DNA of 64,000 nt from Salinisphaera sp. Q1T1-3. Its GTDB lineage: Bacteria; Pseudomonadota; Gammaproteobacteria; Nevskiales; Salinisphaeraceae. Below the pieces are notes generated by a model. That model had not been told where the DNA came from. It was given only the letters and a program-made list of their open reading frames with translations, and did no database searches. This document shows positions 18,301 through 26,334 of the stretch, piece by piece. The translations under genes were made by a program, and so were the position numbers. How positions within the stretch are numbered: the first letter of the stretch is position 1; every line of letters starts with the position of its first letter. Where the stretch lies: assembly GCF_003602005.1 (NCBI RefSeq), contig NZ_QZWD01000002.1, positions 1 through 64,000 of the forward strand. The letters are read 5' to 3'.

Positions 18301-19208
18301 CCACGCGTCGCGATGAGCCGGCCTCGGCGGATGCCGAATACGATGCGCTTCTGGATACGGCCGATCCGGGGCTGCCGGCCGAAGTGTCCTTCGATCCGGA
18401 TGCCGATGTCATCGCGCCCTACATCAACACCACGCGCCCGCGTGTGGCCATCCTGCGCGAGCAGGGCGTCAACGGCCACAACGAAATGGGGTTCGCCTTC
18501 ACCCAGGCCGGTTTCGATGCCATCGATGTCCACATGTCCGAAGTGCTCGCCGGACGCGTGAATCTGGCCGAGATGCAGGGTCTGGCTGCCTGTGGCGGGT
18601 TCTCCTACGGCGATGTGCTGGGCGCCGGGCAGGGCTGGGCTCGTTCGATCCTGTTCAACCGACGAGCGCGGGCGGCCTTTGCCGATTTCTTCGCGCGCGA
18701 GGACACGTTCGCGCTCGGTGTCTGCAACGGCTGCCAGATGCTCTCTGCGCTGGCCGAGCTGATTCCGGGCACGGACGGCTGGCCGCGCTTCGTGGCCAAT
18801 GCATCACGACAGTTCGAAGGGCGCACCAGTGCGGTCGAGATTCTCGAATCCCGCGCGGTGCTCCTCGAGGGCATGGCCGGCAGCCGAGTGCCGGTTGCCG
18901 TAGCGCATGGCGAGGGACGGGCCGAGTTTGCCAGCGCAGCCGCCCCGGACCGGCTGGCTGAGGCCGGCCAGATCGGCATGCGTTACACCGCGAACGCCGG
19001 CGGGCCGGCAACGACGTACCCGGCCAACCCCAATGGGTCGCCGGCAGGCGTGACCGGTCTGTGCAATGCCGATGGCCGCGTGTTCATCTGCATGCCGCAT
19101 CCGGAGCGCGTCACGCGCAGCGTCAACCTCTCGTGGGCGCCGTCGAGCTGGGGCGAGGCCAGCCCCTGGGCGCGTCTGTTCGCCAACGCAAGACGTTTCG
19201 TCGGCTGA
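15306..19208 (+). CDS. purL: phosphoribosylformylglycinamidine synthase (FGAM synthase), large single-chain form
   Basis: At 1300 residues this is the proteobacterial single-chain PurL, catalysing the fourth step of purine synthesis: FGAR + glutamine + ATP to FGAM. Order of domains: PurS-like N-terminus, two AIRS-type synthetase halves (KVETHNHPTAIAPSPGA near residue 296 is the signature of the first) and a C-terminal glutaminase. The glutaminase nucleophile Cys is in GVCNGCQ, and CMPHPER near the end carries the His/Glu pair. The GTG at 15306 lies inside the preceding gene; family alignment of the N-terminus (EHIAIYAG...) supports a start at or near it. Intact throughout. purH lies 21 kb away. 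Confidence 0.95.
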   Translation: MAQSEQPIEHIAIYAGAPALAEFERDRLAVGLAQAGLDSAGLRAQVVYIAAFAAHADEAATTRLKQVLEVDGSAPEPHGVLVLPRLGTVSAWSTKAADIAQNAGVTGLMRLDRALVYRFDDAAPALADLAASGVLHDPMTESMTDDWSLLETLFSQPRPRRLRRVPLAARGETALHEANRDWGLALDEAEITYLAEQYTALERDPTDVELMMFGQINSEHCRHKIFNAAFVIDGQPQADSLFDMIRASYKAAPDGVLSAYRDNAAVVEGPMATRLTVDGERTYRLVEEPVHLLMKVETHNHPTAIAPSPGAATGAGGEIRDEAATGRGGKPKAGLTGFSVADLCIPGHEQPWETDRDRPTHLASALDIMLAAPIGAARYNNEFGRPALGGYFRAYQHESAATGLRGYHKPIMIAGGMGNVRPGHVEKQAVPVEACLVVLGGPAMLIGLGGGAASSMASGADSAELDFASVQRANPEMERRAQEVIEGCIAFGDDNPVASIHDVGAGGLSNALPEIIDADDRGGSIRLRDIHSADPGLSPMEIWCNESQERYVLAIAADRLGDFEALAARERCPYAVVGRATAESQLVVEDSAARSAEDARPVDMPMSVLLGRTPRMTREATRESLRPAAFGHRDIDIAEAFDRVLGVPSVASKSFLITIGDRSIGGMTARDQMVGPWQVPVADVAVTTTAFTGDTGEAMAMGERAPVALIDAPASGRMAVAEAITNIAAARIERLTDVRLSANWMAACGDAVEDARLYDTVRAVGAELCAELGLAIPVGKDSLSMRARWTDAEDRERTMSAPVSLVVSAFAPTVSARGTLTPQLQPAEAGATRLILADLGQGRNRLGGSALAQAYGALGDQAPDLDRHAALAGFFDAIQKLAAAGRILAYHDRSDGGLAACLAEMSFAGHLGVDVTLDALDASAVAALFAEELGAVLQVAADDVETTLATLRDAGVAASDIGTITDDDRLTFRHDGAVVFAAPRVDLHRRWASLSHAMATRRDEPASADAEYDALLDTADPGLPAEVSFDPDADVIAPYINTTRPRVAILREQGVNGHNEMGFAFTQAGFDAIDVHMSEVLAGRVNLAEMQGLAACGGFSYGDVLGAGQGWARSILFNRRARAAFADFFAREDTFALGVCNGCQMLSALAELIPGTDGWPRFVANASRQFEGRTSAVEILESRAVLLEGMAGSRVPVAVAHGEGRAEFASAAAPDRLAEAGQIGMRYTANAGGPATTYPANPNGSPAGVTGLCNADGRVFICMPHPERVTRSVNLSWAPSSWGEASPWARLFANARRFVG

Positions 19209-19246: not shown

Positions 19247-20200
19247 TCAGTCCGGGATCGCGGGTGTCGAAAAACGGATGATCTGGAATATCGGGCCGGT
19301 CGCGGCCATGTCATGGCCCGCCGATTCCGCCCGGCGGGCCCGATCCCGGATCATCCGGATCGCGAAATCATCCAAATTCTCGTAGCCGCTGGAGCGCTGT
19401 ATGCGCACGGCGCCCGGGTCATGGGCCGCGTGAGCGGGTCGAATCGCCAGGCTCGCCCAGGGAATACGCGCCGGATCATCGGGCACCACGGGCTGGCCGA
19501 GTGACCGGGACAGGCCCCGATTGATCGTGGCCAGCTCGGTCGCCATGGGCTGGCGATACGCGTCGAACAACGACCGACCGCGATAGACGATGTCGTCGAC
19601 CTGCCAGCGAGCCATGCCGGCCGCCGGAGATTTGTCGATTGCATGACGCACGAGATGCCAGTGCAGCGTCAGCGGCATGTCATCGCCGTTGGCCAGACGG
19701 ATGACGCAGTTCGTCAGTGCGGTCTCGTGCGATGGGCCGAAGTGACCGGTGGTGAGCAGGATATCCTCGAAATCCTGGGCCACTTCCGCGAGCGGCGCCC
19801 GTGCGTCCTCGGCGAGTCGGGCCTGAAGCAGCCAGGTGAACCTTTCCTGTGTCTGCGCATCGGCGCGCGGCCATGCCCGAGGTGCGATTTGGCGGCCGAT
19901 CGCGCGCAGGTCGAGCAAATCGCCCAGCGTGGCTGCGATCAGATCCCCCTCGTCGGCGGGCCCGTTGTTCTGGGTCAGGATGCGGGCACGGGCCCGCGGG
20001 TCGTCGTCGTGCGCCAGAAGCCAGGTCAGCGTCTGGTAGAGCATCTTGTTCGGTGGTGTGGGGCGATCCGGCCAGAGCAGGCGCGGGTCGAACACGAGAG
20101 ACGAGGTGGCCGACCGATCCGCGGCCAGGGCATTGCCGGCTACGCCGAGACAGGCCGCCAGTGCCAACGCCAGAACGGCGCCGGTTCGTTGTCGCATCAT
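19247..20200 (-). CDS. secreted MlaC-like protein with a TonB-like C-terminal domain
   Basis: A 317-residue exported protein. The start at 20200 gives a clear signal peptide (MMRQRTG, hydrophobic core ALALAACLGVAGNALA). Residues of about 65-240 resemble MlaC/Ttg2D, the periplasmic phospholipid carrier. They include a LLDLRAIGRQIAPRAW segment like LIDLPYMSRLVLGRYS of MlaC, TLHWHLV like LQLHLV, and WQVDDIVYRGRSLFDAYRQ like WKVYDGSVGNLSFVTNYRG in the window's own MlaC. The last 60 residues read like a TonB C-terminal fold: AVRIQRSSGYENLDDFAIRM. The pairing is unusual. It stands alone, convergent with purL, 3 kb from the mla operon. Function is inferred only as periplasmic lipid or partner binding. 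Confidence 0.6.
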   Translation of the reverse strand: MMRQRTGAVLALALAACLGVAGNALAADRSATSSLVFDPRLLWPDRPTPPNKMLYQTLTWLLAHDDDPRARARILTQNNGPADEGDLIAATLGDLLDLRAIGRQIAPRAWPRADAQTQERFTWLLQARLAEDARAPLAEVAQDFEDILLTTGHFGPSHETALTNCVIRLANGDDMPLTLHWHLVRHAIDKSPAAGMARWQVDDIVYRGRSLFDAYRQPMATELATINRGLSRSLGQPVVPDDPARIPWASLAIRPAHAAHDPGAVRIQRSSGYENLDDFAIRMIRDRARRAESAGHDMAATGPIFQIIRFSTPAIPD

Positions 20201-20425
20201 CGATGTTTCCGGGCCGCGAGGCGAGTTGAGACCGAGTATCGGCGCAGGCTCGACCCGGACGCAAGCCGCACGATGGCCATGTGCGCCTGGCCCGGTCCAA
20301 TCGTTCGGCCGCGATGCATCCGCCTTGCGAGGTGGGCGGCCCGGCTCGCGAGGCCCGCGGCCCAGGCGATGGCCGGACAACTGCTATCCTGTCGTCCTGC
20401 CTGTTCGTGCATTGGAAAGTGGCCT

Positions 20426-20958
20426 ATGCAAAGTCGAATACCTCCGTGGCTCATCGGTGTGGCCGGCGCGGCGGCTGTGGCCGTGGCAACACCTGTGATG
20501 GCGGCGGGCCTGTCTCTATCGTCTCCGCAAATCAAGCCGAACGCGGCTATCCCGGCCTCGTTTACCTGCGACGGCGCCGGACAGTCCCCGACGCTGATGA
20601 TCCAGGGCGTGCCGAGCGGTGCCGCCTCGCTGGTGGTCGAGGTGATCGATCCGGACGCGCCGCACGGCGATTTCTTGCACTGGGGGCTCTACAATCTGGC
20701 CACCAATACGGCATTCCTGGCCGCCGGTGCGGCCGGTCATGATCTGCCCGGGCCTGCCACCAGCGTGACCAACGGTTACGACAAGCCGGGGTACGGCGCA
20801 ATCTGTCCGCCGTCCGGCCAGACGCACCATTACCGGTTCGTCTTGTATGCGCTCGACACACGGCTGTCCGGCCAACCCGACGACAAAGCGGCACTGGATG
20901 CGGCGATGCAGGGGCATGTCATGGCGCAGACGGATTTCACGGCCCGCTACACGCGACC

Positions 20959-20962
<4 letters not shown>
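20426..20962 (+). CDS. exported YbhB/YbcL family (PEBP-like) protein
   Basis: A 178-residue phosphatidylethanolamine-binding-like protein with a signal peptide (LIGVAGAAAVAVATPVMAA). The family signature is present: PASFTCDGAGQSP, then VVEVIDPDAPHGDFLHWGLYN, which holds the DPDAP and HW residues lining the ligand pocket, and later HHYRFVLYALD. The cytoplasmic E. coli relatives are YbhB and YbcL. The start at 20426 was chosen as the one that opens the signal peptide. The stop overlaps the start of the acetoacetyl-CoA synthetase by four bases (ATGA), so they form an operon. No substrate is known. Confidence 0.88.
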
Positions 20963-23012: not shown

Positions 23013-23318
23013 TCAGGTCCGGCCCGAGACGTCGATCACATCCCCCAAGCCCGAGAAGTCGATGATGGCACGCATCTGAGCCGGCGCGTTGGCAAAACGC
23101 AGTGTCGTGCCGGCCCGGCGGGCATCGCGCATCCATTCCAGCAGCAGCGCGACGCCGGCACTATCGGCACGCACGACGCCGCCGAGATCGATGACCGTCT
23201 CGTGGCCCGCGCTGAACCAGTTCGCTGATTTCTTCAGCCGGCCGGGCACACTGTTCTTGTCCAGCTCGCCCTCGACGCGCACGGTCTGAATGTCGTCATC
23301 GGTGCTCGTATCGGACAT
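23013..23318 (-). CDS. mlaB: MlaB, STAS-domain subunit of the phospholipid ABC transporter
   Basis: A 101-residue single STAS domain. In the Mla system MlaB binds the cytoplasmic face of MlaF and supports ATPase activity. The helix-capping segment DLGGVVRADSAGVALLLEW is the STAS signature, with Ser in the place often occupied by Thr. The start at 23318 (MSDTSTDD) was chosen because the upstream in-frame extension enters mlaC. It is the last gene of mlaFEDCB, separated by 8 bases from mlaC and ending just before a bidirectional terminator. Confidence 0.88.
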   Translation of the reverse strand: MSDTSTDDDIQTVRVEGELDKNSVPGRLKKSANWFSAGHETVIDLGGVVRADSAGVALLLEWMRDARRAGTTLRFANAPAQMRAIIDFSGLGDVIDVSGRT

Positions 23319-23326
23319 GCGACGAA

Positions 23327-23941
23327 TCACGAACCGGGGTTGTAACGTTTTTCCATCTGCTCGATCACGTTCTCGAGCCCGTTGCGACGGATCTGAGCGT
23401 TGATCTGACCGCGGTAATTGGTCACGAACGACAGATTGCCGACGCTGCCGTCGTAGACCTTCCACTCGTCATTGACCAGATGCAGCTGCAGACTGACCGG
23501 CGTGTCCTGGCCGTTCTGCGAGTGGATGACGGCGTTGAACGTGACGTTCTTGGCGTCGTCGTCGGCCCGTACCGGCTTGTACTCGATATTGACGTTGTCA
23601 TTGAAGCCGAGCAGCGCACTGCCATACGTACGGATCAGCATGTTCTTGAAGGCGGTCTGGAAGCGCTTGAGCTGTTCCGGCGAGGCCTCGCGAGAGTAGC
23701 GGCCAAGGACCAGGCGTGACATGTAGGGCAGGTCGATCAACGGCACCAGATCGCGATTGATCAGGTCGTAGAGCGCCTGCGGATTCTTGCGCAGTTCATC
23801 GCGCTTGCCGTTCATGTCCGACAGGACTTTCTGAACCGTCTGCTTGGCCAGTGTCTCCGGCGGCGTCGGCGCTGCATTGGCCAGCGCCGGCAACATGAGG
23901 GCGAGGGTCAGAAAGGGGATGAATTTACGAGTCCAGCGCAT
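23327..23941 (-). CDS. mlaC: MlaC, periplasmic phospholipid-binding protein
   Basis: A 204-residue MlaC/Ttg2D protein with a signal peptide (FLTLALMLPALANA). It ferries phospholipids between the outer-membrane MlaA complex and the inner-membrane MlaFEDB transporter. Family segments seen: LVPLIDLPYMSRLVLGRY, QTAFKNMLIRTYG, VSLQLHLVNDEWKVYD, and SFVTNYRGQINAQIRRNG. It is preceded by mlaD with an unusually long 156-base gap that contains a dispersed repeat, while the other mla genes are nearly contiguous. mlaA is not in the window. Confidence 0.94.
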   Translation of the reverse strand: MRWTRKFIPFLTLALMLPALANAAPTPPETLAKQTVQKVLSDMNGKRDELRKNPQALYDLINRDLVPLIDLPYMSRLVLGRYSREASPEQLKRFQTAFKNMLIRTYGSALLGFNDNVNIEYKPVRADDDAKNVTFNAVIHSQNGQDTPVSLQLHLVNDEWKVYDGSVGNLSFVTNYRGQINAQIRRNGLENVIEQMEKRYNPGS

Positions 23942-24024
23942 GGCCTAGGCCTCTGATGAAGAAATAATAAGCGCAGAGAGCAAGTTTGCGTTGATGCCCT
24001 GAATGGCCCCTGAAACAGTCGGCT

Positions 24025-24105
24025 CAGGGCCTGTTGATGTTTCGTGCGCGTCCGCACGACAGCACTTGTCCCGAAGGGTTGGGCCGCAAATCCCGCCCTA
24101 GGGGC
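24025..24105 (+). repeat. dispersed TAGGGC repeat element, copy B, inside the mla operon
   Basis: CAGGGCCTGTTGATGTTTCG and TGCGCGTCCGCACGAC match the repeat ends at 12810, 56385 and 56669. The element continues through TGTCCCGAAGGGTTGGGCCG, which resembles, inverted, an internal part of the 56385 element, to CGCCCTAGGGG at the mlaD stop. Both ends carry CAGGGC/CTAGGGC in inverted orientation. The TAG stop of mlaD lies inside its right end. Confidence 0.6.
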
Positions 24106-24700
24106 GCGACGAAGCGCCACCCGTGTCCTGGCCCGAGCTCGCGGGGGGCGCGAACATATCGTTGCCACTGCCGTTCTGGCTGTTTTTCTGGCTGTTCTGA
24201 TTGTCGCTGCTCCCATGCTGGCCGCTACCGGCGTCATCGTCGGATGAGCCGCCGGCGAAAGAGGTCATGAACTGGCCGATGAGGTTTTCGAGCACGATCG
24301 CGCTCTGCGTGAGCATGAACTTGTCGCCGTTCTTCATGTTGTCCGGGGCGCCCCCGGGGCCGACGCCGATGTACTGGTCGCCGAGCAGGCCGGAGGTCAG
24401 GATCGAGGCATCCGAATCCGACGGGATCTTGTACTGGTCGGCGATCCGCATGGTGGCCACGGCGCGATATGTCGTCTGATCGAGCTTGATGTCGGTCACG
24501 CGTCCGATCCGCACGCCGGCCAGATCCACCGGCGCGCCCACTTTCAGTCCGCCGATGTCGTTGAAGGCCGCGGTCACGGTATAACCCGATGCATCGCTGC
24601 GATCGGCCAGATCGCTGACGCGGTAGGTGAGAATGAAGATCGCGGCGATGCCGAGGCATACGAACAGCCCGACCAGCATCTCGACGGCTCTCGATTGCAT
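24098..24700 (-). CDS. mlaD: MlaD, MCE-domain membrane-anchored lipid channel subunit
   Basis: A 200-residue protein with one N-terminal membrane helix (residues 7-24) and an MCE domain: a long beta segment around AAFNDIGGLKVGAPVDLAGV and VGRVTDIKLD-like continuation, then LLGDQYIGVGPG. In E. coli MlaD forms a hexameric ring that passes lipids between MlaC and MlaE. The last 40 residues are a low-complexity Ser/Asp/Gln/Asn-rich tail. The TAG stop lies within a dispersed repeat, so the C-terminal end may have been altered by insertion of that repeat. mlaE lies 15 bases upstream. Confidence 0.94.
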   Translation of the reverse strand: MQSRAVEMLVGLFVCLGIAAIFILTYRVSDLADRSDASGYTVTAAFNDIGGLKVGAPVDLAGVRIGRVTDIKLDQTTYRAVATMRIADQYKIPSDSDASILTSGLLGDQYIGVGPGGAPDNMKNGDKFMLTQSAIVLENLIGQFMTSFAGGSSDDDAGSGQHGSSDNQNSQKNSQNGSGNDMFAPPASSGQDTGGASSRP

Positions 24701-24715
24701 AGACGTTCTACCCTG

Positions 24716-25501
24716 TTAGCTACTGCTGAACATGACAGCAGTGAGCATGAGATTGGCGGCCAGGATCGCCAGCGAGGCGATCACCACGGTGTTGGTGGTC
24801 GCGCGCGACACGCCTTCCGACGTGGGCGGCGCATGATAACCCTGATAGACGGCGACCCAGGTGATGATGGCACCGAACACGCCACTCTTGATGAAGACGT
24901 TCAGGATGTCCTTGTCGAACTCGACGCTCGACTGGATGCCGTTCCAGTAGGCGCTGGCATCCACGCCGAGCATGTCGACACCGATGAAATAGCCGCCGCC
25001 GGCACCGATGGCCATGATGCAGAAGATCGAGGTCAGCAGCGGCATCGCGATCACCCCGGCGAGAAAACGCGGCGCGACGATCCGGCGGACCGGATCCACG
25101 GCCATCATTTCCATGCCCGAAAGCTGATCGGTAGCCTTCATCAGGCCGATTTCGGCGGCCAGCGCGCTGCCGGCGCGCCCGGCGAACAGCAGGCCCGTCA
25201 CCACGGGGCCGAGTTCACGGACCACGACCAGTGCGACCGATGTGCCGAGTGCGTTTTCGGCGCCGAAATCGGCCAGGGCCCGATAACCGGACAGGGCCAG
25301 GACCATGCCGACGAAGATGCCGGCGACCACCACGATCAGCAGCGACAGCACGCCGACCGAGTAGATCTGCTCGACGAGCAGCCGCGGCTTGGTGAGCAGA
25401 CGCGGAATGGCAGCTAGCACCCGCGCCAGAAAGATGGCGCTGCGCCCGAGTTCCGCGAGCCAGCCGAAGGTCTGGTTGAAGATGCGGCTCGTGCGTTGCA
25501 T
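24716..25501 (-). CDS. mlaE: MlaE, phospholipid ABC transporter permease
   Basis: A 261-residue inner-membrane permease with five or six hydrophobic segments. The conserved ALVVVRELGPVVTGLLFAGR stretch, which contains the E-L-G-P-V motif contacting the ATPase, is near residue 95-115. The start at 25501 overlaps the mlaF stop by one base (TGATG), so the two are translationally coupled. A longer in-frame start at 25600 lies inside mlaF and was rejected. Works with MlaF, MlaB and MlaD. Confidence 0.94.
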   Translation of the reverse strand: MQRTSRIFNQTFGWLAELGRSAIFLARVLAAIPRLLTKPRLLVEQIYSVGVLSLLIVVVAGIFVGMVLALSGYRALADFGAENALGTSVALVVVRELGPVVTGLLFAGRAGSALAAEIGLMKATDQLSGMEMMAVDPVRRIVAPRFLAGVIAMPLLTSIFCIMAIGAGGGYFIGVDMLGVDASAYWNGIQSSVEFDKDILNVFIKSGVFGAIITWVAVYQGYHAPPTSEGVSRATTNTVVIASLAILAANLMLTAVMFSSS

Positions 25502-26334
25502 CACCGGCCGGCTCCGAGCAGATCCTGGCCGTAGGACGCCGCACCGTAGTGAAACGGGACCGGGCCGTCGGCCGAGGCGTGGATGAACTGCTGAACCCAT
25601 TCGGATTCGGAATGACGGATGTGTTCCGGGTCGCCGTGATCGATCACTTCGCCGTCCGAGATGACATAGACATAGTCGGCAATGCCCAGGGTTTCCTTGA
25701 CGTCGTGGCTGACCACGATCGCCGTCAGGCCGAGCACGTCGTTGAGCCGCCGAATCAGACGCAGCAGCACGCCCATGGAGATCGGGTCCTGACCGGCGAA
25801 CGGCTCGTCGTACATGATCATTTCGGGGTCGAGCGCGATCGCGCGGGCCAGGGCAACGCGGCGTGCCATGCCGCCCGACAGCTGAGCCGGGAACAGATCG
25901 CGCGCGCCGCGCAGACCGACGGCCTCGAGCTTCATCAACACGATGTCGCGTACCAGCCGTTCAGGCAGGCGCGTGTGTTCGCGCAGCGGGAACGCGACAT
26001 TATCGAACACCGACAGGTCGGTCAGCAGCGCCCCGGACTGGAACAGCATGCCCATGCGCTTGCGCAGCTCGAACAGTCGGCTCTGCGACAATGAATCGAT
26101 GGCCTGACCGTCGAAGGTGACCTCGCCGGCATCGGCACGCCACTGGCCGCTGATCAGGCGCAGCAGTGTGGTCTTGCCGGTGCCCGAGGGACCCATGATG
26201 GCGGTGATGCGACCGCGGGCGATATCGATATTCACGCCCTTGTAGATCGTTCGTTCGCCCAACGAAAAATACAGGTCGCGCACCGCAACCAGATTGGGTG
26301 TCTCGTCTTGCCGGGAGGCGAACGCATCGGACAT
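25501..26334 (-). CDS. mlaF: MlaF, phospholipid ABC transporter ATPase
   Basis: A 277-residue ABC ATPase. Walker A is GPSGTGKTT near residue 49-57, the signature is LSGGMARR, Walker B is EMIMYDEPFAGQDPIS, and a switch His lies in VVSHDVKE. The YDEPFAGQDPI variation is typical of MlaF. It powers lipid movement through MlaE/MlaD. It begins the mla block 28 bases after lipB with no terminator between them, so the mla genes may be read through from the cell-wall cluster upstream. Confidence 0.95.
   Translation of the reverse strand: MSDAFASRQDETPNLVAVRDLYFSLGERTIYKGVNIDIARGRITAIMGPSGTGKTTLLRLISGQWRADAGEVTFDGQAIDSLSQSRLFELRKRMGMLFQSGALLTDLSVFDNVAFPLREHTRLPERLVRDIVLMKLEAVGLRGARDLFPAQLSGGMARRVALARAIALDPEMIMYDEPFAGQDPISMGVLLRLIRRLNDVLGLTAIVVSHDVKETLGIADYVYVISDGEVIDHGDPEHIRHSESEWVQQFIHASADGPVPFHYGAASYGQDLLGAGR

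Follow-up and report, generated by a model that had tools for sequence, protein, structure and literature searches.

An MlaC-like protein of Salinisphaera sp. Q1T1-3 with a C-terminal extension that resembles a TonB C-terminal domain

Gene X and its neighbourhood

The window, by which we mean the whole 64,000-nucleotide stretch of the Salinisphaera sp. Q1T1-3 genome that was analysed, carries an intact ORF of 317 codons on its minus strand, with an ATG at position 20200 and a stop codon ending at 19247. We refer to this ORF as gene X, and to its product as X. The genome itself (G000 in our set) is assembled in 59 contigs and is 99.97% complete. Gene X is convergent with purL, the stop codon of which ends at 19208, and divergent from ybhB, which starts at 20426. 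The features discussed below, in window positions, are as follows.

19247..20200, minus strand: gene X, encoding an MlaC-like protein that is predicted to be exported, with a C-terminal extension (open frame, codon use, MlaC matches)
20123..20200, minus strand: predicted signal peptide of X, residues ~1–26 (sequence, and general signal-peptide rules)
19496..20062, minus strand: MlaC-like domain, residues 47–235, from the PTPP..L..QT stretch (alignment, profile, model pLDDT)
19610..19642, minus strand: 11-residue insertion, residues ~187–197, separating two MlaC-fold strands (alignment)
19250..19495, minus strand: C-terminal extension, residues 236–317, TonB-C-like (profiles, shuffles, model)
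19370..19393, minus strand: SSGYENLD, residues 270–277, the strongest TonB-C-like point (profile, motif scan)
20426..20962, plus strand: ybhB, PEBP family (PF01161), with a signal-peptide-like start, the divergent neighbour of gene X (Pfam)
23327..23941, minus strand: the window's own mlaC, for comparison (Pfam MlaC, E 2.2e-44)
23013..26334, minus strand: mlaFEDCB operon, for comparison (Pfam)

The first-pass annotation had described the gene as standing apart from the mla operon. This is the case: the two lie ~2.8 kb from each other, separated by ybhB and by an AMP-binding gene of the acyl-CoA synthetase type, both of which are on the plus strand.

In each of four segments of the gene, including the one that encodes C-terminal residues 226–317, the frame of X has the top codon score of the six frames. 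We therefore set aside the possibility that the C-terminus is a reading-frame artefact, since residues 226–317 score best in X's own frame. A foreign origin of the gene is likewise without support, its GC content by codon position being close to that of ybhB. A plus-strand open frame at 19643–20962, antisense to gene X, runs on into ybhB; over gene X its codon score is below that of X, and only its ybhB part is gene-like. A promoter and terminator scan returned a single promoter-like site, located within gene X, and no terminator, and a PHROGs search with X returned no match.

Judged by eye rather than with a predictor, the N-terminus of X resembles a signal peptide, with a likely type I cut between ALA and A. 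Residues 14–17, LAAC, match the lipobox rule, so X could be a lipoprotein. We infer from these sequence features that X is exported and periplasmic, and possibly lipid-anchored.

The MlaC-like region

The proposal that the exported protein is related to MlaC is supported by pairwise BLASTP, by a genus profile and by the predicted fold. A single pairwise BLASTP comparison aligned X with the window's MlaC along 138 residues at 27% identity (37.0 bits, E 1e-7). The alignment of X with MlaCs holds through the W-x-V-x-D...S....YR region, and the PTPP..L..QT stretch is common to X and the MlaCs of the genus. The Pfam MlaC profile (PF05494) matched residues 81–224 with 21 bits (E 3.1e-4), beneath its cut-off of 26 bits, and with 22.2 bits, still below the cut-off, in a whole-genome search. 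Against profiles built from 13 MlaCs of the genus, 18 other MlaCs and four HpnM sequences, X scored 26.4, 14.7 and 0.7 bits, respectively; the corresponding best scores among 5000 shuffles were 7.2, 8.3 and 6.8.

X was compared by tblastn with 54 loci, MlaC and HpnM genes among them; after X itself, the 11 top matches were all MlaCs of the genus. The best three MlaCs of sister species scored 43–47 bits (47.0 in G010 and 45.4 in G013). The MlaC locus of X's own genome, one of the 54, yielded no MlaC match to X by tblastn, even at E 1000. By tblastn and BLASTP scores, X thus matches the MlaCs of sister species better than the MlaC of its own genome. We aligned X with the window's MlaC and 34 of 38 MlaC/HpnM proteins (alignment A1; L061, L044, L057 and L048 were omitted). 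The 36 rows share four invariant columns, and X keeps each of them, as D97, W199, S210 and R216. Judging from these sequence comparisons, residues 47–235 of X are a diverged relative of MlaC. In a tree of X and the 35 relatives, the branch of X is ~10 changes per column long and its placement is not secure. With the closest profile and the closest matches being those of genus MlaCs, a duplication within the MlaC lineage of the genus is the likeliest source of X, though not a proven one.

An AlphaFold2 model of X, computed with 35 MlaC/HpnM rows, had a mean pLDDT of 69.3. Within residues 91–230 the pLDDT was mostly 85–94, dropping to 78 and 74 in two blocks of ten residues. Foldseek searches with this model gave ten matches under E 0.001, all of the MlaC/Ttg2D type by name (best E 7.6e-7), and VIA-align superimposed it on 11if (Z 15.7, 3.3 Å, 166 residues) and on E. 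coli MlaC, 5uwa (Z 14.5, 3.2 Å, 165 residues). Since the input rows were themselves MlaCs, the model is consistent with X keeping the MlaC fold but is not independent proof of it. In a PDB search, X alone found two matches (E 0.031 and 2), neither of them MlaC; with alignment A1 as the query there were eleven matches, most of which carry the name MlaC or toluene tolerance protein.

We compared X with the 35 relatives at 14 positions where MlaC meets its partners, with E. coli numbering from two published studies (PMC10245069, PMC10719372) and the MG1655 protein. K84 was left out of the list because the MG1655 letter at that position is not K, and R186 because it falls in a badly aligned stretch. 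According to these studies, a change at L76 of E. coli MlaC abolishes MlaD binding, R90 is a charge that contacts MlaA, and V171 lies at the mouth of the cavity (PMC10245069, PMC10719372). At seven of the 14 positions X departs from the commonest letter of the family. L76, which is L in 32 of the 35 relatives, is replaced by Q104, and Y72 (Y in 24) by A100. Y206 stands for A168 (V in 26 relatives, A in five, I in four), R209 for V171 (L, I or V in all 35) and D213 for T175 (T in 25). The remaining two are H158 at the position of K128 (A in 27) and Q217 at that of N179 (G in 25). X has a minority family letter at two further positions, Q118 for R90 (R in 26 relatives, Q in six) and N164 for R134 (R in 11, N in ten), and T160 at the variable position of I130. 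The commonest family letters are found at the positions of Y82, R153, R147 and S172, as W110, H182, P176 and S210. Our reading of these sequence positions is that the partner-facing surface of X has probably been shifted rather than lost. The window's own MlaC has S at the position of Y82, where 29 of the 35 relatives have W, the letter that X keeps.

The C-terminal extension

The first-pass annotation had X end in a TonB-C-like segment, at RSSGYENLDDFAIRM. The resemblance stands, because it exceeds that of shuffled sequences and of unrelated ORFs; the segment resembles TonB_C over 25 residues only, however, and with a score below the cut-off, which does not establish a full TonB domain. Pfam TonB_C (PF03544) matched X with 12.5 bits (E 0.22) over those 25 residues, its cut-off being 24.6 bits, and the NCBIfam model tonB_Cterm (TIGR01352) matched under its cut-off (E 0.17). 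In a whole-genome search, X scored 14.5 bits with TonB_C, with an E value (0.155) similar to those of noise rows in the genus search. X thus falls below the Pfam cut-off for both MlaC and TonB_C; homology to MlaC is supported over most of that domain, and a TonB-type domain is likely but not proven.

A profile was built from the genus's TonB_C ORFs, 30 in number; X residues 226–317 scored 17.8 bits against it, as compared with 12.8 for the best of 20,000 shuffles. When 3481 ORFs were ranked by the genus TonB profile, the TonBs came first, followed by TolA (21.3 bits), X (15.0) and then an unrelated ORF (7.6). As the tail beats both the shuffles and the unrelated ORFs, the match is above chance, for this one named family. 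Nearly all of the TonB signal lies within 24 residues around SSGYENLD. A scan of 630,852 translated residues, from loci that are enriched for TonB, found the pattern SSG...LD at 34 places; five of these are copies of X and the remaining 29 are within TonB_C ORFs. In X, SSG...LD, a motif of the genus's TonBs, is at the start of a modelled helix, and it sits at a TonB-like distance from the C-terminus.

We also compared the extension with individual TonBs. Against eight close TonBs, none of 2000 shuffles matched the whole C-terminal part of X. The parts flanking the motif, scored alone, gave weak signals. For pre-motif windows of three lengths, 69, 381 and 172 of 2000 shuffles reached the best score, and 252, 449 and 423 did so by mean; for the post-motif part, 824 of 2000 reached the best score and 825 did so by mean. 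Against 27 TonBs, the tail of X was reached by 25 of 1000 shuffles by best score and by none by mean, and the pre-motif part by 468 and 657, respectively. In this 27-TonB test, the control values, from two genuine TonB_C tails, were 227 and 24, and 932 and 599; since the true controls scored poorly, the test has little power.

The domain order of TonB is strand-strand-helix-strand. A single-sequence model of residues 232–317 (pLDDT 58.5) has strands at 250–255 and 265–268, a helix at 276–293 and a strand at 305–310. In the full AlphaFold model, pLDDT is under 50 at residues 245–273 and 301–317. Structure searches with the C-terminal model returned no TonB row (best Foldseek PDB match E 2.7, best VIA-align Z 3.4) and, against BFVD, nothing convincing (best E 0.2). 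Structure prediction is thus consistent with the MlaC fold, from a model fed with MlaC rows; for the TonB fold it gave the expected order of strands and helix at low confidence, and the structure searches gave no match. The absence of a structural match says little against a TonB fold, because the C-terminal model is poor.

These observations have to be weighed against another account, in which X is a diverged MlaC relative with an extension unrelated to TonB. SSGYENLD would then be a coincidence, and the tail would be specific to the lineage, with an unassigned fold or partial disorder. The shortness of the match (~24 residues, below cut-off), flanks that mostly do no better than shuffles, pLDDT under 50 in parts of the extension, the lack of a structural match and an E value of 0.155, near noise, are all in keeping with this account. 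Set against it are a profile score well above that of the best shuffle (17.8 versus 12.8 bits) and about twice that of the next unrelated ORF, a motif that is correctly spaced from the C-terminus, and agreement in the order of strands and helix. We regard coincidence as a credible explanation, if not the one we would choose. A TonB origin of the C-terminal extension is slightly favoured, and the extension looks like a worn-down TonB docking domain, although this is not proven.

A separate ORF of the same genome (L040:2235-3101, on contig G000:C57) encodes a protein of 288 aa that carries a C-terminal TonB_C domain scoring over the cut-off and has, by eye, a lipoprotein-like N-terminus and no TonB anchor. 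TonB domains on proteins that are not transducers may therefore occur in this genome.

Origin, proposed role and likeness to known systems

Searches of 13 congeners, of the order (84 other genomes, congeners included) and of 368 other genomes drawn from the class (369 with its own) turned up no orthologue of X. At the E limits of these searches, the only other matches were MlaCs of the genus. Two genome-contig scans, one of which gave three matches judged from their contigs and positions to be genus MlaCs, and one viral-contig scan also contained no orthologue; such scans with a single protein pattern reach close relatives only. There was none among plasmids at E 1. X is absent from the stretches around purL in the 13 congeners, where the gene directly after purL is ybhB in G001, G005 and G007 and the synthetase in G009, G010 and G013, the other congeners being arranged otherwise. 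A weak MlaC match in G010 (C19:48095) was rejected, as inspection of the ORF by eye suggests a periplasmic binding protein that is unrelated to MlaC. By the genus TonB profile, none of 38 distinct MlaC/HpnM proteins has a TonB-like tail, and no ORF in their loci scores more than 7.6 bits. In titles and the beginnings of abstracts, the literature matches listed for Mla, TonB and the Salinisphaera outer membrane mention no MlaC-TonB fusion.

Our preferred reading, tentative and at a little under even chances, is that X is a fast-evolving MlaC duplicate that has kept the MlaC fold, changed its partner surface and gained a C-terminal docking extension that is probably derived from TonB. Several observations speak against it: the MlaC and TonB_C scores are under their Pfam cut-offs, X matches MlaCs of sister species better than that of its own genome, the TonB signal is weak beyond the 24-residue motif, the C-terminal model has a low pLDDT and no TonB match, the branch of X is long and insecurely placed, and several of its contact positions are like those of the family. 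An mlaC of the genus lineage would have been duplicated, and the copy would have diverged very fast to give X. With the MlaC fold kept, X would probably still bind a lipid, or some other hydrophobic molecule, within an MlaC-type cavity; with the partner-facing surface changed, it would probably no longer shuttle in the ordinary way between the standard MlaA and MlaFEDB. The 80 added residues would most likely be a shortened C-terminal domain of the TonB/TolA type, and would allow X to dock at a new place, by adding a strand to a protein of the envelope. X may thus represent a side branch of lipid traffic at the outer membrane that is particular to its lineage.

A stronger version of this proposal is that X is a lipid carrier that docks on TonB boxes. 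A TonB C-terminal domain, captured from the genus's own tonB and joined to its own mlaC, would tether the MlaC cavity to one of two partners, either a TonB-dependent receptor or the third MlaA described below, and lipid exchange would be placed at Ton-addressed sites. We consider this version a long shot.

Alternatively, X might be a decaying or non-functional mlaC duplicate with no present role. Its extreme divergence, at 27% identity and ~10 changes per column, its changed contact residues and the lack of an orthologue in the genomes searched would fit such a fate, but decay is unlikely in view of 317 open codons, a signal-peptide-like start, coding-like codon use in four segments and the retention of all four family-invariant residues.

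A search for MlaA identified three mlaA genes in this genome, as compared with two in 12 of the 13 other genomes of the genus and one in G010, which is 81% complete. The third is unique to this genome among the 14 of the genus:

L112:3226-4083, on contig G000:C56: third MlaA, with a lipoprotein-like start (MlaA search)

The third MlaA is 53–60% identical to the first MlaA type of the genus, beside which it branches in a midpoint-rooted tree of the three MlaAs of this genome and 13 of the 25 MlaAs of the congeners. Its gene is divergent from a response regulator/sensor kinase pair and is itself followed by an FKBP-type isomerase-like gene, both identified by eye. The presence of X and a third MlaA in the same genome is suggestive only. 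Together with the changed MlaD and MlaA contact positions, the third MlaA gives an indirect hint of the second lipid route, docking on an outer-membrane partner, that the first-pass annotation had put forward as a possibility. That the two form a complete second outer-membrane lipid route is improbable: the extra MlaA, with its lipoprotein-like start and its identity to the first type, would suit such a route, but X is on contig C22 and the third MlaA on C56, and co-occurrence cannot be shown from one genome.

If, as in our preferred reading, the extension is of the TonB type, X would unite, in one natural protein, a lipid carrier of the periplasm and a module for docking at the outer membrane, and so offer a way to aim lipid exchange that the listed literature does not describe. 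Even as a plain paralogue, X has diverged strongly from other MlaC relatives and is altered at partner positions, and could provide a handle on how Mla components choose their partners.

X can be compared with three known systems. HpnM (TIGR03481) is a hopanoid-associated relative of MlaC that, like X, belongs to the MlaC superfamily, is encoded outside the mla operon and has a C-terminal tail. X gave no NCBIfam match to HpnM at E 10, and the four-sequence HpnM profile of the genus gave only the 0.7 bits noted above. An HpnM-like candidate in the same genome (L039:4017-4778, on contig G000:C43) encodes a 253-aa protein that ends in a long tail, and its neighbours are of the hopanoid type, by eye; the counterpart in G010, of 249 aa, has a tail too.

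With the TonB C-terminal domain (PF03544/TIGR01352), X shares SSG...LD and the helix that follows it, a last strand near the C-terminus and, in its low-confidence model, the strand-strand-helix-strand order. It differs in that the initial stretch of the domain (YP..A.....EGtV) is ~8 residues shorter in X, and its score is below the cut-off. The TonB energy transducer has an N-terminal transmembrane anchor with a motor-binding S-H-L-S motif, as described in a published study (PMC12204202). X has neither an N-terminal membrane anchor nor a proline-rich spacer, and inspection by eye of its N-terminus revealed no S-H-L-S motif. X itself is not an energy transducer, because the TonB membrane anchor and the motor-binding motif are absent.

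With MlaC/Ttg2D (PF05494), X shares a signal-peptide-like start, the modelled fold, an alignment over residues 47–235 and the conserved D, W, S and R. It differs from these proteins in its sub-cut-off Pfam score, its location outside the mla operon and its changed MlaD and MlaA contact positions, and it adds to them an insert of ~20 residues after the signal peptide, the 11-residue insertion and the 80-residue C-terminal extension.
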